Origin: Acorus gramineus
Taxonomy: Eukaryota > Streptophyta > Magnoliopsida > Acorales > Acoraceae
NCBI GenBank assembly: GCA_030737835.1
Contig: CM060848.1
Span: 17,136,804 to 17,200,803 of the forward strand
Direction: 5' to 3'
Length of the DNA: 64,000 nucleotides
Shown piece by piece: positions 16,199 through 64,000 of this stretch. The translations under genes and the position numbers were made by a program. Under the pieces are notes generated by a model, which worked only from the letters and a program-made list of their open reading frames with translations, was not told the origin of the DNA and did not search any database. Numbering within the stretch: the stretch's first letter is position 1; each line of letters starts with the position of its first letter.

Positions 16199-17258
16199 CT
16201 AAATCCCATCACACAACTGTTGCTGTAAAAACCAAAAGTCCTCCTGGTTCAAGTAAATCTCCGACGACTCCCCACCGCCGCCGACGATCCCGTTCTGCGA
16301 GTAATCCCAATTATCTGACCACTGTGTGATCACCGTCTCCGGGTAACCCAAGTTGGTGGTGGAAGTCGGGATAACGTTATTCTGTGTATCGCTAACCGGG
16401 TTAAAGTAATCCCCGTTTGTGCTGTAGTCGGATACGGGGGAGACCTGGTGATGCTGAGTCGTCAATAGCGAGTCAGACGTGGTGGTGGTGGCGGTGGAGT
16501 TCTCCGGCGTGGGACCCGCGACGACGAATTGGGTCTGCTGACCGAGATCGCTGCCCGGGTGTACGGACCCGCTGACCGAAGCGGAATTGTTATTCCGGGC
16601 AGCCTGGATTCGCTCGAGGAGGCGGGGCATCCAGAAGTATCGCATGACGTCCTTGAATTGTTTGCTGTTGACGTCACATTGCAGCTGCTTCGCGTGTTTT
16701 TGCACTCTCGTCCTCCAATAATTCTTTATCTCATTGTCCGTCCTCCCCGGCAACTGTTGCGCGATCTTCGACCACCTTTTTTAAAAGACAAAAATTTATT
16801 TAGAAGGACTGGAAAGACGGATTAAAATAAATGAAAGGGGTTAAGTGTAATTTTCACATACCGGTTGCCCCACCGAGAGTGGAGTTCTAGGATGAGGAGC
16901 TGCTCTTCTGGGGTGATGTTGCCACGTCGGACGTCGGGTCTCAGGTAGTTCAGCCACCGGAGACGGCAACTCTTCCCGGTCCGTTTCAAGCCTATTGAAG
17001 TAGTACCACCCATTATTAGTTTTCATAAGGACTTTGTTAAAAACAAAAGTTTGGGTTTGGGTTTGGGAGGAAATCAAAAGGTATACCTGCGCAACGGGCG
17101 AGAGAGTTCCAACGGCCTTCGCCGTGGATGGCGATGTAGTTGACGAGGACTAGATCCTCATCGACGGTCCAGGGTCCCCTTCGAAGGTCCATCATCTCCT
17201 CCTCGCTTTGGGTGGTGGTGGAGCTGCTGCAACTCCTCCCTCGCATGTGTACGTCCAT
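16199..17258 (-). CDS. MYB108: R2R3-MYB transcription factor, subgroup 20 (MYB108/MYB78-like)
   Basis: Three exons (17087-17258, 16862-16991, 16199-16775) join in phase to give 292 residues. R2 has Trp30, Trp50 and Trp70; R3 has Ile83 in place of the first Trp, then Trp102 and Trp121, the normal plant pattern. Both introns sit at the classic R2R3 positions (after [11 protein letters not shown] and after WGNR). After R3 come [13 protein letters not shown] and [11 protein letters not shown] (149-159), the subgroup-20 signature, and the protein ends with DFWFLQQQ as in Arabidopsis MYB108. Members are nuclear regulators of stress, jasmonate, anther and senescence responses. The middle is rich in Thr, Ser and Asn. 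The start at 17258 is the first methionine giving an N-terminus like the family; an upstream in-frame ATG at 17339 would run through a (GA)n tract. MYB78, MYB62 or MYB116 orthology is possible; the clade is certain, the exact paralog is not. Confidence 0.9.
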
Positions 17259-36419: not shown

Positions 36420-37023
36420 ATGTATAAGGAGATGAAAAAATATATCTTTAGGTCCCTAGAGTATAATGCCATTACTTTTAATATCAAAAATATCTCTAAT
36501 CAATTTTTTCAATACACTATTAACATTCTCCAGTACATTATTAAGTATCTCCGATACATTGTTAATCTTTGCAAAATGTTAACAGACGACGAGGGACATT
36601 TTCAGTATTTTAGACAGACAAACTAATAACATCAATTTCTAAAGATCTAAAGATAATTTTTCACTGCTTTAGGGCTAAAAAATCTTGAAAACTTTCAAGG
36701 ACTTAAAAATAATTAATAGGTGATCACAAGGACCCTAATAAATTTTCCCAAAAAACATATATACTGTCTTCCCTAGATGTATTAATTGAAAATTATTCTA
36801 TAAAACAGAAATCAAAGGTATAAAAAATAATAAAAATCTTAAAATCTTGCATGTTTTCCACGTGACAACACAATGTTATCCCCCATAAAAAAAAATATTT
36901 GGATTTTTTTTTTAAAAAAAAAACAAAAACAAACAAACAAAACATTGTGATTCCAAGTATTAAGACCATCATCTCTATTAAAAAGTCCACTGCAATTTTG
37001 TTAAATAACTCTCCGATTTGAAC

Positions 37024-38544
37024 ATGATATTGTCCTCACAAACTCTTCATCCAATCCTCCCCCATCAATCCCCTCACTCACCACGCCCAATCCTTTCATC
37101 CAACAAACCCATCAAGAACAACAAGACCCCCACCCCCACCTCCTCGGAATTCGGGACCCTCCTCCGCTCCTGCATCGAAACCCGCTCTCTCCAACAAGGC
37201 AAGGCCCTCCACTCACGCATCATCCAAGCCGGGTTCGACCGGAACCGAGACTTGCTTCCCAGGCTCATTAAGCTCTACTTCACATGCAACGGAGCGAGCG
37301 ACGCACAAAAACTGTTCGATGAAATCCCCCATAGAAACCGAAACGTCTATATATACACTTCTATGGTTTCTGGGTACTTGGAGAATCAAATGTTCAATGA
37401 AGCCTTCGATGGTTTCTTCGAAATGCTCGAAAATGGCGTAAAACCGGATTCTTTCACCTTCTCTGCTCTCATGAAGGCTTGTGTTCAATTGGGTTCTCTC
37501 GATTTGGTTGTTCAATTGCATTGCATGATTGCGAAGCTTGGTTACGGGCCTTCCGATTTATCCGTCGCTAATTCTCTCATCAATGCGTATGGGTTCTTTG
37601 AAAAATTTGAGTCTTTTAGTCGAATCTTCGACGACATGCCCATGAGAGACGTCGTTTCTTGGACTTCGATGATTCAGGCGTGTAATCGGTCGAAAAGACA
37701 TGGTGAATCGATGGAGCTGTTGTCGAAGATGCAGTTCGAGGAGGGGCTTAAGCCGAACGCGTTAACGGTCGTGTCCGTGTTACCCGCTTGTGCATTCTTC
37801 GCTTCTCTAAAGAAAGGTCAGGCGATCCATGCTTTCGTTATGCGAAACGGACTCAATTCGAACGCGGTGGTTGCGGCTGCGCTTATTTCCATGTATTCGC
37901 AATGCGGGGAATCCGATGATGCTTTGGTGGTGTTCGACGCATTGGAGGGGGCACCAAACGTTGTGGTTTGGACATCGATGATCGAGGGGCTATCGATGAA
38001 CGGGAGGTTTGACGAGGCATTGAGGCTATTCGAGGCAATGCAAGTCAAACCGAATCGCATAACGCTCGTGGTGGTCTTATCCGCTTGTAGCCATGGAGGT
38101 CTTCTCGAAGTGGGTCGACGGATTTTCGATAGCATGAATGAGAAGTTTGGGATCGAGCCTCGAATGGAGCACTACGCGTGCGTGGTGGACATGTTGGGCA
38201 GGGCGGGTAGGTTTGATGAGGCAGAGGATTTCATCGAACGCATGAAGGTTAGACCGAACGGGAGCGTGTACGGGGCGTTGCTCGGGGCATGCCAGGTTCA
38301 TCGAAACGTAAAGCTGGGAGAGAGGGTGGCGCTCGAGCTATTTGAGCTCGAACCGAGCGATGCGGGGAATTACGTGATGCTTTCGAACTTATACGCTTCG
38401 ACGGGGAGGTGGGAGGAGGTGGGGAGGTTGCGGGTGGCGATGATCGATAGGGGATTGTTTAAAAGCCCTGGCTATAGCTGGTTGGAGATGCGAGACAAGA
38501 TTTTCGTGTTTGGCACGGACGAGCGCGCCGATTTGGATTGCTGA
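37024..38544 (+). CDS. PLS-class pentatricopeptide repeat protein with E domain, intronless
   Basis: A single exon encodes 506 residues (508 if the ATG at 37018 is used). It has a run of P, L and S type repeats with characteristic words (VKPDSFTFSALMKAC, RDVVSWTSMIQAC, LKPNALTVVSVLPAC, VKPNRITLVVVLSACSHGG, MEHYACVVDMLGRAGRFDEA). An E domain follows (YGALLGACQVHRNVKLGE, then GNYVMLSNLYASTGRWEEV, SPGYSWLEM). It ends shortly after the E region and lacks the C-terminal DYW deaminase domain. Family members bind organellar RNA in a sequence-specific way and commonly direct C-to-U editing with partner proteins. The N-terminus is rich in Ser, Pro and His with few acidic residues, suiting an organelle transit peptide; target organelle and RNA cannot be read from sequence alone. 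Confidence 0.93.
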   Translation: MILSSQTLHPILPHQSPHSPRPILSSNKPIKNNKTPTPTSSEFGTLLRSCIETRSLQQGKALHSRIIQAGFDRNRDLLPRLIKLYFTCNGASDAQKLFDEIPHRNRNVYIYTSMVSGYLENQMFNEAFDGFFEMLENGVKPDSFTFSALMKACVQLGSLDLVVQLHCMIAKLGYGPSDLSVANSLINAYGFFEKFESFSRIFDDMPMRDVVSWTSMIQACNRSKRHGESMELLSKMQFEEGLKPNALTVVSVLPACAFFASLKKGQAIHAFVMRNGLNSNAVVAAALISMYSQCGESDDALVVFDALEGAPNVVVWTSMIEGLSMNGRFDEALRLFEAMQVKPNRITLVVVLSACSHGGLLEVGRRIFDSMNEKFGIEPRMEHYACVVDMLGRAGRFDEAEDFIERMKVRPNGSVYGALLGACQVHRNVKLGERVALELFELEPSDAGNYVMLSNLYASTGRWEEVGRLRVAMIDRGLFKSPGYSWLEMRDKIFVFGTDERADLDC

Positions 38545-38699: not shown

Positions 38700-40431
38700 T
38701 TTTTTTACAATCGTTACCGGCTTTAAGTTTTTTAAGTATATACTAAGGAGTTTTACAGAAGAAAATATTGTAAGTATAAATACGAATGAATTTGGAATAT
38801 ATTCCTTTGCACAAACACAAATGAAAGCCAATGCCATTGACAAATATAAAACCATGTTAGGAAAAATTAGACAGCAATGGTAGCACAAGGATTATAAACA
38901 ATGTCCTTTCTCCGATGCATATTTTCCTAACCACCGTTTGGGTAACATAAACTATTAAGGGACAAATAACCGTTGTAATATATATGATAAATAAATCATT
39001 TTTTGTAGAGTTGTATTTTAAGTTATTTTTATTAAAAAATATAATAATAAAGTTTTTGTTGTTTGTTTAATAATAAAAAATTATGAGTAAAAGGTAAATA
39101 AATAATTATAAAATGTTAAAAAGTTGGTTTGACATAAGCAATTTTGATTTATGCGAGATGATAGGTGATTTAACGTGTGAGTCTTTTTATACAAACAAAT
39201 TGGATGGAATAATCTAATTTAAAAAGACATAAAATATCAATATTATTTTTTTCCTATCTATTCTGAGACAGTTATATTTAGTTATTCCTTACAAACAAAT
39301 AATTTTTTAGACTTATTCATTTATATTTCACCAAATTTCATATTTTCCGAGTTCATTCCACCATCCAAATAAGGGTTAAAAGCTCATCCATGTCCGCATC
39401 TAATCAACCAGATGGACCATGAAATTTCAATATATTATTAAATTGATCAATTTCTTTTGAATAATCAAAATTATTTCAGACCAATATCAGTACTCGATTT
39501 ATTTATTTATTTATTTTTATTTTTTTACTAAAAACTATCAAAATAAAAAACTGCATTAAGTCTCTATAAACATCATGTACACATGGAGAAAGTATTAGAC
39601 GAATAATATTGCCGGTCAAAAGAAGCAGTCAATCGGACTCGAATTTTAGATCAATGGATAGTTGATTCTTTCACGGAATATAAACGTGGACGTCATTTAA
39701 TCACGTGCTTTCCACCAAAAACAGGTGGACATCCACCCGTACGTACATTTTGTGTGCTCCGATACCCCCATTCGAACGGCTGTGATCTTTTAACAAGGAA
39801 GTGTTTTTTTCAGACACGTGTTATTCGTTCGGTAGTTCAACGAGAGGTCCTGACGTGTACACGTTCGACTGGATAAACTCAACCCAAAAAAGAAACACGT
39901 GTCCACGTCAGCATTCCATCCCTCTTATCCACCATGGATAACTTTTTCCGTTTATTATATCACAATCCGTTTCTCAACCGTCCGATCCAATCTGAACGGC
40001 TGTCACCAATCTTGACGTGGCGTCAAGGCGCACGTGCGCGCCGACCATCCACCGACCCTTTGACTCCAACCATTTCTGACGGTTCGATCGGTGGATCCAA
40101 CGGTTCCCGTGATAGTCTAAAACCATGGGTAATTTCGTCTTTTTGAAATTAAATTTTTCTGGTCATGATTCGTGTTCAAACACGTTCCCTCATTTTCCCC
40201 GAATTTTCCATATGTTTTTTCTCTGTTTCTTTTGTCCGAAGCATTTCCTTTCACAAATATATTTCACAAGCTTTGATTTATTTTAAAAAAAGGCTTCTTT
40301 AAAGTTTCTTCATTATTTGTATATACGAAATCCATACGAAATCCCCAATTTTTGTGAACAATTCAATCGATTTTTTTTTTTTGATTGAGTTCGATTAGGG
40401 ATTCAATCGATCCCGTATTGTTGTTGTTGTG
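38700..40431. promoter_or_regulatory. Spacer and promoter region of the invertase gene, with ABRE/G-box-like words
   Basis: The first kilobase is AT-rich. From about 39660 several ACGTG words occur: AATCACGTGC, GACACGTGTT, AAACACGTGTCCACGTCAGC and GACGTGTACACG. ACGGCTGTGAT and CCGTCCGATC are interspersed. No TATA box stands out. These are motif matches consistent with abscisic-acid or light-responsive control, not proof of it. Confidence 0.4.
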
Positions 40432-43400
40432 ATGACGATGATGATGATGAGTGCGACGACTTCCATGAAGCCCTGTTGTCGGATCCTGTTCGGCTCCGGC
40501 ACGCCCGCAGTCCGCCGCCGTCGCGTAGCCGCCGCCGCCGTCGGCTACATCCGCCGATTCGACGCCTCCTACTCCCGACGCTTCCCCCGCATCGTCCGTC
40601 GTATGCCCTGCCACTGTCGCGCCTCCGCCGCTGCCGGCGCCGACGGGGGCGTCTCGATCGCCCGGCGACACTCGACCTCGGTCGAGATCGTCGGCGCCGG
40701 GGAGAGCAAGGGGTTCGAGAGGATCTACGTGCAGGGTTTGGCGGCGGCTGTGAAGCCGCTCGTCGTGGATCCGATTCCGGTGGAGGTTCCGGGGCCGCCT
40801 TCGCCGGAGGAGGCCGTGGAGGAGGAGAGGGGGGTGCCGATCGCGGCGGAGAAGGAGCTATCGGAGATGGAGAAGGAGGCGTGGAGGCTGCTGCGAGAGG
40901 CGGTGGTGAACTACTGTGGGAACCCGGTCGGGACCGTGGCGGCGAACGATCCATCGGAGAACGCTTCGCCGCTCAATTACGATCAGGTGTTCATACGCGA
41001 CTTCGTTCCGTCGGCGCTCGCGTTCCTCCTGAAGGGGGAATTCGAGATCGTTCGCAATTTCCTTCTCCACACTTTGCAATTGCAGGTGAATTTTGTATTC
41101 TGTTGGTCTTGATTTCTTGATTTTGTTTGGATTGAAATTGATTTGAATTTTTGTTTTTTGGGTGTGATTGTAGAGTTGGGAGAAGACGGTGGATTGCTAT
41201 AGCCCTGGACAGGGGTTGATGCCGGCGAGTTTTAAGGTGAGGTTGGTGCCGCTGGATGGTGGGAATGAGGCGTTTGAGGAGGTGCTGGACCCTGATTTCG
41301 GGGAGGCGGCGATCGGTCGGGTCGCCCCTGTTGATTCCGGTGAGTGACTGGTGGTTTGGTTTGGTTTTAGGGGTGACTCTTATCTTGATTGTCAAAAGCA
41401 TGTGGTTTATGTCTGGTATATAAGAAAAGTATTGTTACACGCAATTTATGTAGACGGTCCCACGGACAGTCCATATACCTCCATAGCATTCTTATGATAT
41501 CTTCATCAATTATAAGTATTTTTTGCACATTTGCTAAACATGGGTCTATTCACTAGACATATACACTTTTCATAAAAACATATATCTTATTAGACTGTTT
41601 CTAACATTATTCATATAAGAATGAAACAAGAGTCTCTCTTCATACTAAAAAGATGATAAAGTGCTTCTTAGGGCAACATTATAAAACTAACTCTAACCTA
41701 TAATCTCTGTGTTCATCTCTTTTATTTTAAAATCATATGCATTTTTCCTCTCATTTTCTTTTAAAAAAACTACAATGCATATTTTAATAAGTAAATTCAA
41801 AAACATATTATTTTTTTAGGAAAATGAACTTGGTGTATCCACCGCTTCTTTGTATTAGATAGAAAGGAGTACATGCCCGATGAAAACAAAGCAGCAAATT
41901 AAGCAAAAGAGAAGAGGAAAGGAGAGGGAAAAAAAAAAAGAAAAAGAGGGGGGAACTTGGGTGCTTGGGTATGAGATTAATCAATATCTGTGAAAAATAT
42001 GGAAGTTTAATTGATGATATCTTAAAAATATTATTTTTAAATATATGTTAAATGTTTTTAATATTGATCTTATATTGAATGTATAACTGGATATAGGACT
42101 TACATACACTCATGGATCAGGAGGTGCTTTTGAGATGGAAATTTGAAATTCCTACATATATTGGTTCTGCACTTGTAAGAGTTGTGATGTGTGATCATAG
42201 TATGCACACCATGATTTGCATTGCGACTTAATGATATGAAGATGTAAATATAGTCTAGTTGCTCACATCAAGAATTTACAGAATTTGTTATTCTAAGGGG
42301 TTAGTTGCATGATATTATTGTCATTATATATTTATTTATTCTGGTGCTTGATAAATAGTGACATTTTCTCTGGTCCTCTATTGAGGTCAAGGGTGTCTCA
42401 ATGTCTTGACTAAAATGATTAATTAAAATTTTGGGTTAGTGAAAACTTGTGATATGGCATTGACAGGGTTATGGTGGATCATCCTGCTGAGGGCTTATGG
42501 AAAGATCACTGGAGACTATGCATTGCAAGAGAGGGTGGATGTCCAAACTGGCATAAAACTGATCTTGAACTTGTGTTTGTCTGATGGATTTGATATGTTC
42601 CCATCTCTACTGGTCACAGATGGCTCCTGCATGATAGACCGAAGGATGGGTATCCACGGACACCCTCTTGAGATCCAAGTAATTTAAAGTTCCACTGAAT
42701 CCTTTTCTATTGAAGTTTATTACTTTTTTATGCTTCCATTGCAATTTTATTGTCCTTGTTGTTTTAGACTAGTTATATATTGAATCGGACATGCTGGAAT
42801 TGTTTTTTCATTGACTTTTGTTTTATTCAATTTTGTAGAGATTTTTCTCAGATGGCCCATTGTGTACTTAACCTCAGAAGATGAACATGTCAGGGTGAAA
42901 AATCCATTGTAAACGAGTATCAATCATGTAATTAGATGCACTATATGTTGCTGATATTTGCATTCCAGCCTGACACTCCATCGGTAGGGTAACCTGTATC
43001 CATGTGTGAACTTGTGAATTAACTATGATTATATGTGAGAACCTGATGACAACTTTTTTCATTTTAAATAATTTTACTTGATTAAACTGTCAGAGGGCTT
43101 CTTATTTCAGTGAATCTTGCTCAGGTCTTACTTTAGTAATTAGCAGCTTAAAGTCAAGGGAAAGAGAGGTTATAAGTAGCTGAAAATGTATTGCTAATAT
43201 TTTTTAATACGAAGGCAGTTAGTTTAGATACGGTTTTGGTAGTCCACTGCATAACACATAGGCCTGCAATCTAGTATAAGATCGTTCCCAGTTGATGTTC
43301 ATGGGAAGAAAATTACACTTTCCAGTTTCCACTGAACTCAGAGCATAAATGATTTGAAATGATTACATGCTAAAGCAAATTATCTCATGCATGAACTTGG

Positions 43401-45379
43401 ATGATTAAAAATCCTTTTATTCTGCTTATTTTCTACAATTGAATGAATGTGCCTCGTTGCCTCCATCATAGATTACATTCTAGCAGCCAACTGTTTGGAT
43501 GCTGTCAATAGTGATTGTTATGATTCAATTGGGATGTCTAAATTTTACTTCTACTCGGGAAAGTTTTTAACGCATTCTTCTTGGTGCTGATTGCAGAATG
43601 GTGTGCAACTTTGTTTAATCTTTATTAGAACCATGGATACTCCAACTGATTTTTACATTTTTTTTGGCAGGCATTATTTTACTCAGCTCTTCGGTGTTCA
43701 CGTGAAATGATCACTGTCAATGATGGATCCAAGAATCTGGTGCGAGTCATCAACAATAGGCTCAGTGCGTTATCCTTTCACATTCGAGAGTATTATTGGG
43801 TGGATATGAAGAAGATCAATGAGATATATCGGTATAAGACAGAGGAATACTCTCAAGATGCGATTAATAAGTTTAACATTTATCCTGACCAGATTCCTTC
43901 CTGGCTAGTGGATTGGATTCCTGATAGAGGTGGTTACCTTATTGGCAATCTTCAGCCAGCTCATATGGATTTTAGGTTCTTTTCACTTGGCAATCTATGG
44001 GCCATAGTCTCTTCTTTGACCACCCCAAAGCAAGCCGAGGGCATCCTTAATCTTATTGAAGAGAAATGGGATTCCATTGTCGCAAATATGCCTCTTAAGA
44101 TATGCTATCCTGCTTTGGAATATGATGAGTGGCGGATTATTACCGGAAGTGATCCAAAGAATACGTGAGTTTCTTTTCTTCCTTCTTGGTTGATATAATT
44201 GGCTTTTGCAGCATATTTCATTGCATGCATCCTTGAATGTGTGTTCTGCTGCAGGATGTGAATGCATTCTTAATCCTATCTATACCACAGTAGATTTATT
44301 ACAATTGAATTTTGCAAATTTCTTAGGACTAGCCTGCATAGGGTTGGATTGGCAGAGGGATAAAACTTTTCCAACTAGAAATACGGATAAAAATGCATTT
44401 TTTTCACCCATCCTCTCAGATTCATTATTTGTTCTGTAATCAGTGTGGATCCTTAGCCTCCTGTTATCCATATACTACCAAATTTGATTTGTCCCTTTCC
44501 AGTCTGCCAAATTCTCTACTTTGTAACTCATAGGAAGACAGTACAGGACATACGCAATCTCCAGTGGATGGAATGAGGAAACAAACAAAACACCCTATAA
44601 AAGAGGATTATCTGAGCCATTGTTACACGTCGTCTTATTTATTTTTATCTTTTCTCCTTACAGAAAGTTTTTGGTGGTGGTGTGTTGATGATGTTAATAT
44701 TTAATGAAGTGAAGGAAGTGAAATCATTAATTATAAATAAAAACAAAGAACCATCATTTGAGATATATCTTCAACAGAAGAAGCTAGGTTGCCCTTAGAA
44801 AAGATAACGAGCCACTCTGTTTAAAAGAGAATTTTTTTATTGTACCATGCATCAAGCTATCCATTAAAAATTGTTCTCTCATGCTACTTCTAACTAGGGA
44901 ATATGATTTTTTGCAGGCCTTGGTCATACCACAATGGAGGGTCTTGGCCTACACTCTTATGGCAGGTACTTTAGATACTTTATTCTACTATACAACTTGA
45001 TATCGAAAATTTAATTCTATTCTAAACTTTCCTCCCTCCTTTTTTTCCCCAGTTCACGCTAGCTTGCATTAAAATGGGTAGGCCTGATTTAGCCAGGAAG
45101 GCTGTTGAGGTGGCTGAGAAGAGGCTATCAAAAGATAAGTGGCCAGAATACTATGATACCCAAACTGGCAGGTTCATTGGGAAACAAGCACGTCTGTATC
45201 AGACATGGACAATAGCAGGGTTTCTTACCTCCAAAATGCTCTTGGAAAATCCAGAGATGGCATCCATTCTGACATGTGATGAGGATCTTGAGCTGCTGGA
45301 GGGATGTGCATGTCTTCTGAATAAGAGCGCACGCGTCAAGTGCTCTCGCTATGCTGCGAAGTCTCAGGTTCTCATCTAA
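40432..45379 (+). CDS. INVA: Alkaline/neutral invertase (GH100), INV-A type, probably mitochondrial
   Basis: Six exons (40432-41085, 41174-41339, 42467-42678, 43671-44164, 44917-44965, 45053-45379) join in phase to 633 residues, the usual length for this clade. It hydrolyses sucrose to glucose and fructose at neutral to alkaline pH. Signature blocks are [19 protein letters not shown] (about 183-200), [33 protein letters not shown] (Asp272), [61 protein letters not shown] and KWPEYYD (Glu557). The Asp of VDSGLWW and the Glu of WPEYYD match the catalytic pair as I recall it for cyanobacterial InvA. The N-terminus is Arg/Ala-rich with almost no acidic residues, and MKPCCR resembles Arabidopsis INV-A, so mitochondrial targeting is likely. 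Exon 1 is far more GC-rich than later exons. A GTG just before the ATG was not used as start. Confidence 0.93.
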
Positions 45380-46280: not shown

Positions 46281-47493
46281 TTATAAGTGATTCAATCCAT
46301 GGAAGCCATTCCGATGATCATCATCATCGTCGTTGTCGACAAAGTCCGCCACCGTCCGGAAGGGATCGAGGCGGCTGTGGCTGAGGCGGAGGGAGTAGGC
46401 GGCCTTCTTGTACTCAGCCCAAGTGAATGGCCTGTAGAGGGAGGGTGTCTGAGCCGTGACTGTCTCCGGGAGGGGGGCGATCCGGGCGTGGAGAGGCGGT
46501 GCACCGAAGTACACCATGGACAGCCTAGACCTGTATGGGTTCACCATGGCTCTATGTCTCACACTTATGAACCTCCCGTTTGTTAAGGCCTTTTTTTTAT
46601 TCAGTAAACCAAAAAAAAAAGAAGACAATGCACATTCAGCTCCACATTGGCACATTTTTATTGTATATATTAGGTTATTGAAAGAAGAAACCTACTGTCA
46701 CACTGGGATATTTTTATAATCATTTTTTTAGTCAAGTTGAAAATGAAATCAAATAAAAATGTAAAACTTTATGCATTTAATTCATTTGAATATGTGTATT
46801 CCTATCTTTTTGTAAATATATATATACTTAACTAGGCAAGTATTGTTAAGAAAAAAGAAAATAAAACTGCATGTGATCTGTATTAAATATGACATTTTGA
46901 TTTTAATTTTTTTAAAATAAGATGAAGTTTGAACTTTTACTGGCCATTTGATATTTTCAAAATTTATACACAAAAATAGGAAAATACAAAACTTGAAGAA
47001 AACATGAACCTTATAAATTCATAATTAAAAAAAAAAATTGAAAAAACAAAAATGAGTTATCTTGAGGTGCTCTAGAACATGGTAATTAATTAAGTACATC
47101 ATTAACTCAAAGCGTAAAACTTGAGAAATTCCATCAAGTACGTAAATGTTTTGCATGAGTAAACAAACATGAAAGGAAGATCAATATTCTTGCTTAATAA
47201 TGTCACCAAATAGAACATGCGGATGTCATGCAATTACATTACATTGGTTTAAGTACAATGAAAATATATATGAAGATAACTAATTAAACTGTGTTCTGCA
47301 GTTTTGTTTTTCTCATCATTAACAGTCCTCGAAATACATCAAGGAGTTGATGAGAACTACAGTTCTTTAAATCATATTAAAAAAAATTTGATTTAAAATA
47401 TGAAACCAAGGTGCATTACAGTCCGGTCAAAACGCATGGACTAACAATGATAAAATAAGGAGTTCACGTGTGTGGTTTGAAAGATATGATATG

Positions 47494-47562
<69 letters not shown>

Positions 47563-48862
47563 GTGTGTGTGTAGTGTGTAGTGTGTACCTGCAAAGCATC
47601 ACCAACGTTGACACAGAAGGAGTCCGGGTCAGGCGAGACGGGGGCCCAAAGGCCGTCCCCAAGCGAGATCTGAAGGCCCACAACGTCGTTTGACCTCAAC
47701 AGTGTCAATATTTGAGGGTCCGAGTGCTCCCCAAAACCTACCACACCTTTCACACTCACTCCTCCACCATTAACAACATTACACCACCCTTGTTGACTTG
47801 ACATGTCTCTGCCACTGCTGTTGTTGTTGTTGTCCTTGTCAACCGTACCATTGTTGTTAGTAGTTGTTGTTGTTGATATCAGTGAAGGGTAGTGATTGAG
47901 CCTGAACACAGAGTCACTCTCACCATCTCTTATCAGCCTTGCAAGTTTTTTTGGATCAGTTAATCTCAGCCCTTCACCCACCATCTCTAGAATCTCGACC
48001 GCTAGATCCTTCACTGCCTCCACGTACTCCCTCACTGTGCAACTGTATAAAAATAATGTGACATTGATTTTTTTACCCCTGCATGGATGTGTATAGTAGT
48101 ACTAGTACTATCTCTTGCATGTGTATATATATATTTTTTACCTTATATAGGTGTTGTTGGGGTTATGTGTTTGGCTTGATTGTTTGGCTCTGTGTAGCAT
48201 GGTTTGAGGAAGAGGGAGGGGGGGTAGGTGACTAGGTGTACCTTAGTCTGTCTGTGTTTTTCTGATTGGATGCATGGATTGACAGTGTGTCAGTGTCATG
48301 GTTGTTTCATGTTCTCATGAAGTTTCTTTTTAAATTTTCAGAGGAGGGAACGGAACATATGGATTTCATAATTAACAGTGGGGATTCTTTCTTTTTTCTT
48401 CTTTTCAAACAAGAAAAAGAAGTTGATGTGTGTCTGGACCATTGGCCTACCTCTAAAGCTTTGTTTGTTTATGAGTTTGCTTAATTTGTTTCTGTATGTG
48501 TCCCATATAACTGATTTTAGGGTGATTTATGATATATAAAAACTGTAATAAAAAATATTTTACAATCTTACTGAAAATGTCATAGGGTCAATCTACTATA
48601 TATTACAGAGATGAGCTAGATAGGCTGGATCCGATATATGAAAGTTTAAGAGGATATTGTCATAGTATTTTAATTTTGTGTTTTCAAAATAATAATGCAA
48701 TATGTTTTTTCAGAGAGCATTTTTTTCTACATATGTGGCACATAAACTAAACCTTTGTAACCATCAGACATAATAGTATAACAGCGTATATATACATTGG
48801 ATTTAACAACACAGATCAGTCAACTTGATTATTTTGTGTGTGTGTGTGTGTACGTGAGAGAT

Positions 48863-48894
<32 letters not shown>

Positions 48895-49718
48895 CCTAGT
48901 ATTGGGTGGAATGCCCGATGGAATGATTTTTGTAAACTTGGATTACTTCGATGTAATCCAGGATAATTAGCTAGCTGTGGATGAATAATAGCTGAATAAA
49001 AAGAAGACATATGGTAGTTTTTACGTGTGAAAACAAGCCACAGTCGACAAATATATATATATCAGCAAAAAAACATCACAGACACACATATTATTGTAAG
49101 TTTGCAGTGACCAATTATTGATGCGCCTGCACCACAAATGTACTCAGAATCTGATATGTTTCAAATTATATGTGCTCACCTAACATGACCCAATGAAAAC
49201 CAAAACTTATGATATTACTTGTCAACCCAACCACCCTATATTGTATGATCCAACACACAACATATATTTATGGTTAACAATATAATTAACATCATATAAA
49301 AATAATTAAACAAACACATTAATTCATATATAGCCAACCTGAACTTGTTAGGGTCCTCGCTAATGGTTTTGGACCTGTGGTTGATGGAGGCCTGATTTGT
49401 GTGGAGGAGGAGGTATTCAACCTCTCCGGTGTCGCCGTTGAATCCGATGTTCTTGTAACCGTAGCCCAGAGGATTGGGCGGCCCCGCCTTGAGCTTCTCC
49501 GGGGGTGGTTGAGCGAAGAAGGCGAAGGCCTCGGCCTCCATATTTGCCACTACGTGGCGTGGTACACCATGGTTGACCACCTTAAAGAAGCCAAGCTCTT
49601 CGGAGGCTCGGACAATGAGGTCCACCACGTCGGACCTCTTCCGGGTTAGGTCAATCACCGGGAGCCCGATCGGTCGAATGCGGTCTGGCCGGACCGGTGT
49701 CGGAGATGCTGCTACCAT
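46281..49718 (-). CDS. GA2OX: Gibberellin 2-oxidase (2-oxoglutarate/Fe(II) dioxygenase)
   Basis: Three exons (49339-49718, 47589-48042, 46281-46589) join in phase to 380 residues. The enzyme 2-beta-hydroxylates bioactive C19 gibberellins and their precursors, inactivating them. Diagnostic parts are GFFKVVNHGVP, AGPPNPLGYGYKNIGFNGD, the iron site GFGEHSD (His233, Asp235) with RHRAM (His290), and the 2-oxoglutarate-binding YRSRLSMVYFG (Arg300, Ser302). The end, FTWAEYKKAAYSLRL, is typical of C19 GA2ox. Oddities: a Thr/Asn/Ser-rich stretch of about 49 residues between LNHYP and GFGEH, where Arabidopsis GA2ox2 has about 16 by my recollection, makes the protein longer than usual. The exon 3 acceptor follows an A-rich rather than pyrimidine-rich tract. 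Exon 2 begins with a split Ser codon (SCTVREYV). Intron 2 opens with an AT/AG/GT microsatellite. Paralog number cannot be assigned. Confidence 0.92.
47494..47580. repeat. Compound microsatellite (AT)n(AG)n(GT)n in GA2ox intron 2
   Basis: About 16 AT units, about 17 AG units and then GT units lie directly after the exon 2 splice donor on the minus strand, close enough to influence splicing if lengths vary. Confidence 0.85.
48834..48897. repeat. (GT)n and (GA)n microsatellites in GA2ox intron 1
   Basis: A GTGTGT run is followed, after TACGTGAGAGATG, by a GAGAGA run. Confidence 0.8.
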
Positions 49719-49859
49719 AATTGGACTATGTTGAGCTTAATTTGTTTAATTTCCTCTGGATAAGAGAAGATGTTGATTTTGTTATATGAAGACTAAGAGA
49801 GGTAGTGAAGTGGTTTTGGAGGGGGGGGAATGAATGGAGGGGGGAGTTGGGGGGATAAA

Positions 49860-59289: not shown

Positions 59290-61750
59290 AAATATGAATA
59301 TAAGTGGGTGTGCACATGATCCAAATATAAATAGATTTTTTTAATACATCCCGATTAATAGGGGTGTGCACCTGAAAATCTAAATCGTATCATACTGTTG
59401 AATTTGAAAATAAAGATATATGGTTTTATTGATACTGAGATGAATATGAATCTAGCCAAATTGGTTTTGATTAGTTTTATCAGTACCAAATTGTACAATT
59501 CTTTAATTAAACTACTCAGCTTATGAATCGAACTGCACAGTCAATTATTATGTACATATTTCACTCTCTTAATAGAGTCAGTTAGGTATTGAATAAAACA
59601 TGAATTTCTTATTATCATTAGTATCCAATGGGATAGTGAACATGTACGTAATAATTGGTTGTGCAATTCGATTCATAAACTGTGTAGTTCAATTAAAAGA
59701 TGATATAATTTAATATTGACAAGACTCTTCAAAGCCAATTCAAATTGAATATGGATTCTAATGAGAAGAGGGAACATGAGGGATCATTAAAAAAAAAAAA
59801 AAAAAAAAAGAGGAAAAGTCTCCTTTTGATTTGATAGGTGGGGGGGGGGGGGGGGGGAGACGTGGACAAATGTAATTTTATATATGTTCAGATATGTTTT
59901 TTGGGGAGGGGGCATCAGTGTTGATCATGGCCTAGAAATAGGATTGCAAATCTATAAATTGTATGGGGAGAGGACATTCCATGTGGACGTATCATTTATA
60001 AATTGTAAATGAGCTTTAATAAACTTAATTCATTTTTGTAGTACATCTTGTTAATTACTTTTACTCATAGGATCAAGATATATCTCTTATTCAAAATTTT
60101 ATATTTTTTATACATGATAACATTCAATTTATTAAAGTATATAATATACATTTTATGAAAGAGCTTATCTCATGAGATAAAATATACAAATTTTAATAAA
60201 AATAAAATATGTGCTGTTTGTATTCTAGACTATAAAATTGTGTGAATGTAACATTTTTCTTTATATATTGATGGTGGATTAGTGATGGATTGATTCAAGG
60301 GCGACAATACATTCGGTAATTGCAGTCGGCCATATAGTTTTAGTCCAATATATGAAACTATCTAATATAATGTAAATTATGCTAGTTAATGTATATATGT
60401 TTGCTTAAGAAAAATAGGAAAGGTAAGTATTCAATTTATTTGAATGTATATGAGTATATCTCATATATTGTTAATGTATGTATTTCATTAGATATAAATA
60501 CACATATACAACATGTATATATATAAATTCAAAATGTGTTGAAATTGCAAAAAATGGATGTTGTTGTTAAAGGTTTCAATTGTCATATACATTATATTGG
60601 TGTTGGTATATTATATTCCAAGTTTCTCTTCACTATGAAGAGTAGAATGAATTAAAAATCATGCATGTATATAATATCTAAAACATAAATAATCGAATCT
60701 AAGACAACCCGATAAAGAGGGATACCTCTAAATCTCTAATATATCAAGAGATGATTCAACTTCTTTTTTTCTATTGTAAAAGAGTCTTACAATTAGAAAT
60801 TGTTACTCAAAACTGCCTCGATAAAATTTATAATATTCATACAAGGAAATAGAATTATAGATAGAAATTTTTTTTTTTTTTTGTTATGATCACTTTATTG
60901 TGTTCTCTAGCTAGAAAGAAGTTCAGTATGAAACCTAATTGGCAAAGGCATGCATTCTTTAAAAACTATAATCCAAATCAAAGAATACCTTTAAGTTGAT
61001 AGTTATTTGCCAAGATTATAACAAACAAGAGAATACAAATTAAAGGTCCACATTTACGTGTAAATTTAAGTACATAGAGTTCATAAACTTATCTTTTTGG
61101 TTTTGGATTGAAGCAATAAGAAGATCACAATCACATAGGTCCAACAAAAAAGACAAGTGTAGGGATGACAGCCTCAAATGGCTACATAAAGAAAAACAAA
61201 ACAACCAATTATTACTAAATTCTTGGTGCACAAAGATAGAGAAGACGAAATGTAAAACCAATTGATTCAGAAGAGACTCAAAAAAGTGCATGTATACCAC
61301 GTATAGAGAAGGGAAAACATATGCAAACATAATCATAACCCAAAGAACAATAATGGAGAGAGATTGCATGTCCAATTCAAATAACATAATGCAAATCTTT
61401 GGAACACATATATTGTACAAACTCCCAACTGCTGTTACTACCTATTCTGATCAATCAGTGGGTCACGAGGAGAATATTGTGGAGTCTACCCACTCATCAT
61501 TCAGAGACTTTAAAAGAAAAAAAAGACAAGTAAGTAAACAAGGACACACACAAAACAAAGGAGAGGAAGAACTGGCAACAGTGCAGAAGCATATATGTCT
61601 GCGCAAATACTCCCATAAGCCAGAAAGCAAAGATAAAAACACCACCCACATGTTTATAGGCCAAGAAACAAGAACACAAAAGGTGGTTGGTTTTGGTTTT
61701 TTTTTTATCATGTGGTTCTAGGTAAATCAAGGATGATAATTATTTAATTA
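59290..61750. other. Spacer downstream of TAS3
   Basis: Contains an A-run (59789-59809) and a G-run (59840-59857). Open frames at 61040-61420 (minus) and 61290-61721 (plus) overlap each other, are compositionally biased and match no family I know. Part may be transcribed as the TAS3 3' region, but no polyadenylation site can be fixed. Confidence 0.45.
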
Positions 61751-61775
61751 TTTATCGGATAAGATAAGGAATGAA

Positions 61776-61792
61776 AGGTCGTAAAGCGACCT
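61776..61792 (-). other. Small hairpin just 3' of the TAS3 cleavage site
   Basis: AGGTCG-CTTTA-CGACCT (minus strand) can form a 6-bp stem with a 5-nt loop, 12 nt after the 3' miR390 site. Role unknown; possibly chance. Confidence 0.4.
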
Positions 61793-61804
61793 CCACCTTT
61801 TAAA

Positions 61805-61825
61805 TAGCTCAGGAGGGATAGAGAG
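61805..61825 (-). promoter_or_regulatory. TAS3 3' miR390 target site (cleavable)
   Basis: Pairs with miR390 (as I recall its sequence) without mismatch at miRNA positions 2-17, mismatching only at positions 1, 18, 20 and 21. Positions 10 and 11 are paired, so slicing between 61815 and 61814 is expected and sets the siRNA phase. Confidence 0.92.
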
Positions 61826-61899
61826 AAGTGGAGAGGAAGGATTGGGGGAGGAGGAGGAGTTCCTGGAGTATGGTTAGATCAAGACAACAACTGCGGCGT

Positions 61900-61920
61900 G
61901 GGGTCTTACAAGGTCAAGAA
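61900..61920 (-). ncRNA. tasiARF, 3' copy
   Basis: Minus strand reads TTCTTGACCTTGTAAGACC followed by CC, identical to the conserved tasiARF as I recall it. It would be loaded into AGO1 and guide cleavage of ARF2/3/4-type mRNAs. Confidence 0.95.
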
Positions 61921-61941
61921 AAGGTCTTACAAGGTCAAGAA
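61921..61941 (-). ncRNA. tasiARF, 5' copy
   Basis: Immediately adjacent to the other copy and identical except for its last two bases (TT instead of CC). These 3' positions are least important for target recognition, so both should be active. Confidence 0.93.
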
Positions 61942-62018
61942 AACTAAATTGTAGCACTGAAGAAAAGGATGGAGTGGGAACTTCGAGGGAGGTGGGAGAC
62001 TCGCAGGGAAGGAGGAAA

Positions 62019-62039
62019 AAGCTCAGGTAGGATAGCGCC
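62019..62039 (-). promoter_or_regulatory. TAS3 5' miR390 target site (binding, probably not cleaved)
   Basis: Matches miR390 at 19 of 21 positions. The only mismatches are at miRNA positions 10 and 11, across the slicing point. In angiosperm TAS3 the 5' site is typically bound by AGO7 without cleavage, which this arrangement explains. Confidence 0.92.
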
Positions 62040-62048
62040 TATTGAAGG

Positions 62049-62204
62049 CTAATAATAGCCAGCATTTGAGAAACACTGCCTTTGATGGGGATTGTGGTTG
62101 GTGAAAGCTCCATTAACGGAGAATATCCGATCGTTGGGAGCTCGAGTGCTCATGATCATGGTGATGATCATCAATGTAAGGTTGGTGATGATGGCTTCCC
62201 TCAT
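62049..62204 (-). CDS. TAS3 upstream small reading frame, 51 codons
   Basis: Starts MREAIITNLTLM and ends with SNAGYY and a TAG stop nine nucleotides before the 5' miR390 site. Arabidopsis TAS3a also carries a short frame ending close to its 5' site. Published work, as I recall, links ribosomes stalled there by the AGO7-miR390-SGS3 complex to efficient siRNA production. The peptide itself looks unconstrained (Met/Ile-rich, no domain), so the role is probably the position of translation rather than the product. Confidence 0.75.
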   Translation of the reverse strand: MREAIITNLTLMIITMIMSTRAPNDRIFSVNGAFTNHNPHQRQCFSNAGYY

Positions 62205-62697
62205 GTTGATGAAATTATATGTTCAAATTGTTTTCCCTGCGTGACAAGAGGAAACATGAAAACATGAGTCATTTGGGTGTATTAATACCTGCATAGAAGC
62301 AAGCAAGGGAAATGTATCAAAAGAAATTAAACTACAAAGATATGCTTAATTAAAGAGTACCAAAATGAACAAACTTTTTACCATGGAAAGGCCATAATAA
62401 AACTCTCTCAAATCTTATCCATTCATTTGGTCGTGAAAAAAAAAAAAGTGATTGTAAATAAAGCAAAAAATGCACATTCATGTCTAAGAAGATTTCTTAT
62501 CAATCAAAGCTTCATGACACAAAGGAATAACAAAGATACATGATATAACCAAAGAAAACATAAAGGAGAAGAAGAGATGAAGAGAAGGGTGACTTTGGAA
62601 GCTATATTTCCTTTGTAAACTCACCCTGGATTTCTGTGTGTTTGAGAGAGAGAGAATGAGGGCAACAAAAGGAGAAGAGACTGAACATGTGGAATGA

Positions 62698-62740
62698 AGA
62701 GAGAGAGAGAGAGAGAGGTTGATAGGAGAAGGTATAGGTG
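62698..62740 (-). promoter_or_regulatory. Putative TAS3 core promoter
   Basis: On the minus strand CCTATACCTTCTCC (about 62725-62738) lies about 20-40 bp before a (CT)n tract (62698-62717), resembling a TATA-like box plus pyrimidine patch. AGGCCCA and GGGCC words lie further upstream near 62800-62825. Confidence 0.4.
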
Positions 62741-62849
62741 TCTGTCCCTATCCGGGTAGGTCCTCACAGCAGTCCGAAATGACTTAATCGGTCTCTTTAT
62801 GGGCCTGACAGTTACGTACAAGGCCCGACCCACCAAAGCCATAAGTCAT

Positions 62850-63177
62850 AACAATCTCCAAAACCACATTTTTTTTAATTTTTTTTAAAATAATGTCTCC
62901 ACACGTGTGCGTCACTCATCTACCTATGCATGTATATTATAAAACAATCAATGTTTCAGGCCTGAAATCTGACCACGCACGTGTATCTCAAAATGTTAAA
63001 AAAAAAAAAAAAAAATTAAAACTTGGGGAGGAGCTTCCAAGGCTTTGTGCTTTGGATATTCAGTCTATGTATCCGAGTCTCTCTTATAATATGTAAAAAT
63101 CTATAATATATAGAAGTTCTGGGTGTATTTTTTTTACTATACGAACTTGTTGCATATATTTTAGGGTTAGGGTTTTT

Positions 63178-63208
<31 letters not shown>

Positions 63209-63637
63209 TCACAGTCTTCAATGATGAGAGGGTCGTCAAAGGAGAAAGTAAATTGTACTCTTAATTGGGTGAATATTTAATCCTATGACACAGTTTGTTG
63301 ATGTTAGCTGAATTAGCAAATGCAGATTTTAAACAAATGACAGTTCTACTGACAAAAGAAGAACAGAATCTAATGAAAAAATATATATATCAATGAATGA
63401 TGTAATTGTATATGTATGCATTAACCTTATAATTAAGATGATGATATTGATGTTGGCTCCTCTGAGATAGATGATCCATGTTATTTATCTGCTAATTCAA
63501 TCAGCTTCAGAAAAATACATAAAACCCTAATAAACCCTATAGATTGCATGACGTGGGATTTATATTTTCATGCAATTTGTGGGAAACTGTGGCTTCTGAC
63601 AGCATGTCATCACTGACTGTCGATGCTGTCTATACAT
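62850..63637. other. Spacer with T/G homopolymer
   Basis: A T-run (63173-63187) runs directly into a G-run of about 21 (63188-63208). CACACGTGTG and CACGCACGTG words at 62900-62990 could belong to the TAS3 promoter. No gene seen. Confidence 0.5.
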
Positions 63638-63665
63638 TTTTTTTTTTTGGAATAAAAAAAAAAAA
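63638..63665 (+). mobile_element. 28-bp retroposition scar with 16-bp target-site duplication
   Basis: GATGCTGTCTATACAT occurs at 63622-63637 and again, identically, at 63666-63681. The 28 bp between are a T-run, GGAAT and an A-run. This is the form left by target-primed reverse transcription that copied little more than a poly(A) tail. Confidence 0.6.
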
Positions 63666-64000
63666 GATGCTGTCTATACATGTTGGAAGGAAAACTCTTG
63701 TATGAAAGACTATAATAATCTTAAGGTGCCTAGGGTTGCCATTGACTGTTTGGAGACATCATAATTCAGATTATATATATACAACACTTTCGATTATATT
63801 TATGCACACCCAGCCATGCATGTTATATTTTATATTATAATATTTACCATTGATATTCATGTTTTTAATTGAGGACTGCAACAAACAATACCTAATAGAA
63901 TCAACCTTAGCACCAATTAATGAGGACATTAAACAAAACAAGAAAAAATCAATCACTGTAACAAGTAATTTCAACACAAATCTTTGCTAGCTCCACCATA

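Follow-up and report, generated by a model that had tools for sequence, protein, structure and literature searches.

A two-tasiARF-class TAS3 locus and its putative partner genes in the Acorus gramineus genome

The minus strand of the analyzed window (the whole stretch of 64,000 nucleotides, C2:17136804-17200803) almost certainly carries, at ~61.8-62.7 kb, a two-tasiARF-class TAS3 gene, whose transcript would follow the known course from miR390 and AGO7 to ARF mRNAs. Read 5' to 3', this strand contains a miR390 site, two tasiARF units, and a second miR390 site; the initial annotation had proposed these four elements, and their positions, order and strand were all borne out. The joint expectation of all four parts is ~3e-29 under an order-0 model, and chance is therefore no explanation for the layout. 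The miR390 sites, phase register, open reading frame (ORF), paralogue, MIR390 genes and ARF target sites can all be recognized in the sequence of the genome searched (398,581,865 bases in 137 contigs, denoted C1, C2, etc.). The sequence case for the gene is strong, and from it we infer activity, i.e., siRNA production. The gene is an ordinary one, belonging to a class already known from many dicots, as described in reports on several species (PMC3835848, PMC3446319, PMC10673657, PMC5954288).

Layout and phase register of the locus

The two miR390 sites (Table 1) are the only placements with at most six mismatches to miR390 on either strand of the whole window, and none of 100 shuffled sequences contained a match with at most three. 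Their distance, given earlier as about 210 nt, was measured as 214 nt, with 193 nt in between, and they flank the tasiRNA region. By its mismatch at position 10 the 5' site is predicted to be of the non-cleavable type, while the 3' site, paired through its center, is of the predicted cleavable type; the cut assigned to it follows from the position 10/11 rule. Two exact copies of the 19-nt tasiARF core are present (minus strand, 61923-61941 and 61902-61920), within the two adjacent 21-nt repeats described in the initial annotation, and no other place in the window matches it at up to four mismatches. Shuffled sequences never contained two tasiARF matches at up to three mismatches (0 of 100), although isolated matches did turn up (mean 0.02, largest 1).

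The tasiARFs lie 85 nt (4x21+1) from the predicted cut. Counted in 21-nt steps from 61815, 5'D5(+) is TCTTGACCTTGTAAGACCCCA (61899-61919) and 5'D6(+) is TCTTGACCTTGTAAGACCTTT (61920-61940), i.e., the tasiARFs are in register with the predicted 3' cut as 5'D5/D6, the canonical 21-mers being offset by one nt. The abundant reads anticipated earlier at 61900-61920 and 61921-61941, in steps from 61815, are thus placed one nt too high. The offset is a point against the TAS3 reading, yet we regard it as no defect: the in-register D5+ and D6+ of longan DlTAS3 also have TCTTGACC as their first letters, and they are reported with 284 and 478 reads, respectively (PMC4680215). Reads from Nicotiana benthamiana with a TAS3 inverted-repeat construct are reported to include both TCTTGACC and TTCTTGACC forms (PMC12274081), and for lotus TAS3c, a gene with one tasiARF, a shift of two nt in phase has been reported (PMC4254747).

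Table 1. Features of the TAS3 locus, other genes of the window, and ARF genes elsewhere in the genome
Feature	Coordinates	Strand	Remarks
5' miR390 site	62019..62039	-	2 differences: A.A at position 10, G.U at 11; predicted AGO7-miR390 binding without cut
3' miR390 site	61805..61825	-	differences at positions 1, 18, 20, 21 only; 2-17 perfect; predicted cut 61815/61814
tasiARF unit 1	61921..61941	-	exact 19-nt core; in-register form 5'D6(+) = 61920-61940
tasiARF unit 2	61900..61920	-	exact match to TTCTTGACCTTGTAAGACCCC; in-register form 5'D5(+) = 61899-61919
51-codon ORF, TAG stop	62049..62204	-	same start and TAG in C1; putative coding
Gap from ORF stop to 5' miR390 site, 9 nt	62040..62048	-	also 9 nt in C1; 8 nt at C3
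Possible leader intron	62237..62624 (alternative acceptor 62289)	-	best donor, two best acceptors of region
Conserved stretch, probable core promoter	62715..62805	-	long near-identical runs with C1, by eye; function putative
Upstream conserved block	62970..63041	-	73% of 80 vs C1
Upstream conserved block	63042..63083	-	95% of 42 nt vs C1
Upstream conserved block	63206..63249	-	89% of 44 vs C1
Upstream conserved block	63538..63635	-	81% of 100 vs C1
Further block aligned with C1	61655..61684
Downstream conserved block	61305..61517	-	65% over 223 columns vs C1; perhaps transcript 3' end
2OG dioxygenase	47427-48101, 49236-49736		Pfam scan of ORFs
Invertase	40399-41112, 43650-44168		Pfam scan of ORFs
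PPR gene	37009-38541		Pfam scan of ORFs
MYB fragment	16199-16780		Pfam scan of ORFs
ARF gene, two sites	C3:28620865 and C3:28621042		beside PF06507 match
ARF gene, two sites	C6:22344566 and C6:22344743		beside PF06507 match
ARF gene, one site	C5:16767524		beside PF06507 match
ARF gene, one site	C32:1090579		beside PF06507 match

In the published descriptions, Arabidopsis TAS3a, apple MdTAS3-1, tea TAS3a/b and watermelon TAS3a share with the window two miR390 sites, a central mismatch in the 5' site together with a 3' site of the cleavable type, and two tandem tasiARFs on the transcript strand (PMC3835848, PMC3446319, PMC10673657, PMC5954288). The phase positions differ, D5/D6 (plus one nt) in the window against D7/D8 for Arabidopsis and tea (for Arabidopsis also given so in PMC4006784). 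In longan DlTAS3, as reported, the tasiARFs occupy 5'D5/D6 and are likewise offset by one nt, D6+ is identical to that of the window, D5+ agrees at 19 of 21 positions, and the 5' site also has a central mismatch, whereas the distance between the miR390 sites is 158 bp instead of 193 and the remaining register units agree at only 6-14 of 21 positions (PMC4680215). The one-tasiARF, or short, TAS3 genes, e.g., apple MdTAS3-2, likewise combine dual miR390 sites with a tasiARF; however, MdTAS3-2 is described with a single tasiARF and a 5' site without the mismatch at position 10, unlike the window (PMC3446319).

Related loci and surroundings

The exact tasiARF core occurs four times in the genome, twice in the window and twice at C1:4002168-4002207. 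The C1 copy aligns with window positions 61787-62830 (67% over 1116 columns), and further blocks range from 61305 to 63635. The conserved stretch is thus wider than the 61760-62717 given earlier for the complete locus. By eye, identity peaks at ~62715-62805, the start of the ORF, the stretch between its stop and the 5' site, the tasiARFs, and the 3' site. In both places TAS3 has, ~18-19 kb away and in mirrored order, an exon of an alkaline/neutral invertase (95% identity between the two), which indicates that the two genes sit in a duplicated (syntenic) block. The C1 miR390 sites have five differences each, against two and four in the window; those of the C1 5' site are at positions 7, 9, 10, 11, and 17.

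Two further TAS3-like loci contain one tasiARF each, exactly at 5'D6: one at C3:21310721-21310951 (5' site differing at positions 9, 11, 18, 3' site at 7, 18-21) and one on the minus strand at C6:13664638-13664879 (5' site differing at 8, 9, 11, 17, 19, 3' site at 7, 18-21). They resemble the short TAS3 genes in having one tasiARF, yet their 5' sites are mismatched. The search that yielded the C6 locus returned 10 places (control, 3), others including C1:18515078, C2:13120403, C3:24548717, and C70:96263. In total, the genome has at least four TAS3 loci (C1, the C2 window, C3, and C6), found by searches with mismatch limits or among the matches listed, and more diverged ones are possible.

The surroundings of the window TAS3 were described initially as gene-free, a fair description with respect to coding genes among the ORFs scanned: between 49.8 and 64 kb, none of 20 ORFs (18 of the 24 listed stop-to-stop ORFs of at least 70 aa, plus two short ones) had a Pfam match at E<=0.01. 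Elsewhere, recognized genes of the window come from 10 scanned ORFs, six of which had matches (Table 1), and the nearest such gene to TAS3 among the ORFs scanned is the 2OG dioxygenase (exon 49236-49736). At gathering thresholds the whole window gave no Rfam match, a point against the TAS3 reading, although Rfam may hold no TAS3 model; matches to Flavo-1 and HOTAIR_2 within 60-64 kb (E<=1) scored far under gathering and were taken as chance. The tasiARF tandem had no exact match in the viral contigs scanned. A hairpin gene at 61400-61560 was ruled out (z -0.02).

Several other sequence features were observed in this part of the window. A near-palindromic hairpin at 59459-59740 has 102-nt arms that are 79% complementary (-107.7 kcal/mol, z -13.2, none of 100 shuffles as good). 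It has 77 matches listed in the genome, with palindromic copies counted on both strands and 40 of 886 candidates scored, and in view of these many matches a MITE-like repeat is more probable than a miRNA gene. At 63188-63208 and 59840-59857, uninterrupted runs of 21 and 18 G adjoin T or A runs and are possibly assembly-prone. Finally, a pair of 19-nt direct repeats at 63622-63684, 95% alike and with starts 44 nt apart, surrounds T and A runs, and the weak Flavo-1 match falls there.

The short open reading frame ahead of the 5' miR390 site

The 51-codon ORF that stops shortly before the 5' miR390 site was absent from the initial annotation. It has a 44-codon counterpart in C1 that shares its TAG and its 9-nt gap, and the two differ by indels of 3, 12, and 6 nt. 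Their peptides are identical at 15 of 36 positions (E 7e-06); at the first, second, and third codon positions, 32, 35, and 31 of 45 nucleotides agree. The C3 locus also has an ORF of 51 codons, with a TAG 8 nt ahead of its site and no detectable similarity to the window ORF. The C6 homologue of the C3 ORF (30/50 identical) extends into the 5' site, where it terminates at 61 codons; C6 also has an ORF of 28 codons that stops 11 nt ahead of the site. An ORF of at least 44 codons (44-51) with a stop 8-9 nt upstream of the site was thus found in three of the four TAS3 loci, C6 being the one without.

In Markov sequences, such an ORF arises by chance in 43-53 of 10,000 cases per locus for a distance of 8-9 nt and in 299-372 of 10,000 for 0-15 nt; at sampled positions of the real window, the frequencies were 7/3438 and 53/3438, respectively. 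Reports on Arabidopsis describe ribosome-bound ORFs of TAS RNAs that end at the miRNA site (PMC5207768), and ribosome stalling near the 5' miR390 site has been described as well (PMC8860578). When most of the ribosome-bound region of Arabidopsis TAS3 was deleted, the abundance of RNA and siRNA reportedly went down and the efficiency of miR390 cleavage was not lowered; the authors of the deletions ascribe to ribosomes mainly the stabilization of TAS3 RNA (PMC12127299).

It is possible, though we hold this only tentatively, that the stop codon is a selected cis-element at 8-9 nt before the 5' site, independent of the peptide, which would place a terminating ribosome at a fixed distance from AGO7-miR390. 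A TAG at this spacing has been kept by two dissimilar ORF lineages, C1/C2 and C3; on the other side stand C6, the one locus of four without it, and the Arabidopsis deletions, reported without a drop in cleavage efficiency (PMC12127299). If this reading is true, C6, where the ORF runs into the site, would be a natural test, with fewer siRNAs expected. Arabidopsis is already known to have ORFs that end at the miRNA site; the novelty, if unreported, would lie in a spacing that is constant between unrelated ORFs.

We consider it unlikely that the stop lies there by accident and that ribosomes play no part at the window locus. A chance of ~3-4% per locus for an ORF of at least 44 aa ending 0-15 nt before the site, and the C6 exception, would agree with an accident, as would the undiminished cleavage after removal of the ribosome-bound region in Arabidopsis (PMC12127299); the dN/dS of the window and C1 ORFs (0.34/0.64), which the small number of synonymous sites (27) keeps from being conclusive, can also be counted on that side. 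Nevertheless, two dissimilar ORFs end at 8-9 nt, with a chance of ~0.4-0.5% each, every indel between C1 and C2 has a length divisible by three while TAG and gap are identical, and the ends of the ribosome-bound Arabidopsis ORFs (PMC5207768) point the same way.

The leader may also contain an intron (Table 1), according to splice-site scores from approximate weights. With the acceptor at 62237 one ATG would remain upstream of the ORF, and with that at 62289 four. In C1 the acceptor at 62237 is kept, and the donor at 62624 is not.

Partner genes and proposed pathway

Exact miR390 occurs twice in the genome, at C5:28450845 and C8:6466204, both times in a hairpin with CGCTATCTATCCTGAGTTT in the other arm (-71.6 and -70.3 kcal/mol for 161 nt, these being fold energies only). 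The search returned 12 places at up to three mismatches (control, 1); those at three mismatches are the C3 TAS3 site and seven others. A third MIR390 gene at C32:11728581 (two mismatches) was rejected, as the sequence gives -41.7 kcal/mol for 161 nt and no single long stem.

Six target sites encoding VLQGQE beside PF06507 matches correspond to four ARF genes (Table 1). Positions 1-20 of D6(+) pair with all six sites free of mismatches, with G.U pairs only; for D5(+), one or two mismatches fall at 19-20. The genome search behind these sites gave 124 places at up to three mismatches and its control 366; also among the matches listed were two-mismatch matches at C8:14582106, C32:1625505, C53:500948, and C53:947376, and a three-mismatch match at C3:21310816. 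A site at C2:25471812 is in the VLQGQE frame and pairs with D5(+) bar one G.U and one mismatch at position 21; with no PF06507 match listed nearby, it was left out of the count as a fifth ARF gene. With MIR390 and ARF genes present elsewhere in the genome and every testable sequence feature in agreement, the earlier assignment of the window gene to the long, two-tasiARF TAS3 class is supported.

The existence of a second two-tasiARF copy in C1 allows for the window gene being a silent or weakly used copy by descent, with the C1 paralogue doing the work. We find this quite improbable, as miR390 fits the window copy better than C1, the window tasiARFs are exact, its ORF is uninterrupted, and conservation extends to the stretch on the promoter side. 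An ARF gene fragment on the plus strand, where the repeat reads VLQGQEKVLQGQE and an ORF at 61870-61947 encodes GVLQGQEKVLQGQE, the motif of ARF target sites, was ruled out with hardly any doubt: the flanking ORFs scanned had no Pfam match, the units are spaced by 21 nt against 177 nt for the paired ARF sites of the same genome, and the two miR390 sites would be left unexplained.

For the TAS3 gene, the known pathway would predict the following course of transcription, binding, cutting, dicing, and silencing. A polymerase II transcript would begin near 62.7 kb; ribosomes would translate the 51-codon ORF and terminate 9 nt ahead of the 5' miR390 site, which AGO7-miR390 would occupy without cutting. 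The 3' site would be cut by AGO7-miR390 between 61815 and 61814, the 5' fragment would be converted to dsRNA via SGS3 and RDR6, and DCL4 would dice it from the cut in 21-nt steps. The resulting 5'D5(+) and 5'D6(+) would then silence ARF mRNAs at the VLQGQE-encoding sites.

The window adds one more TAS3 gene that protein annotation cannot show, and the sequence parts of a miR390-TAS3-ARF module are visible within one genome. Its four TAS3 loci found here form two paralogue pairs, and a single locus lacks the usual spacing of the ORF stop, so that nature itself provides a comparison by which the part played by ribosomes in making siRNAs may be assessed.
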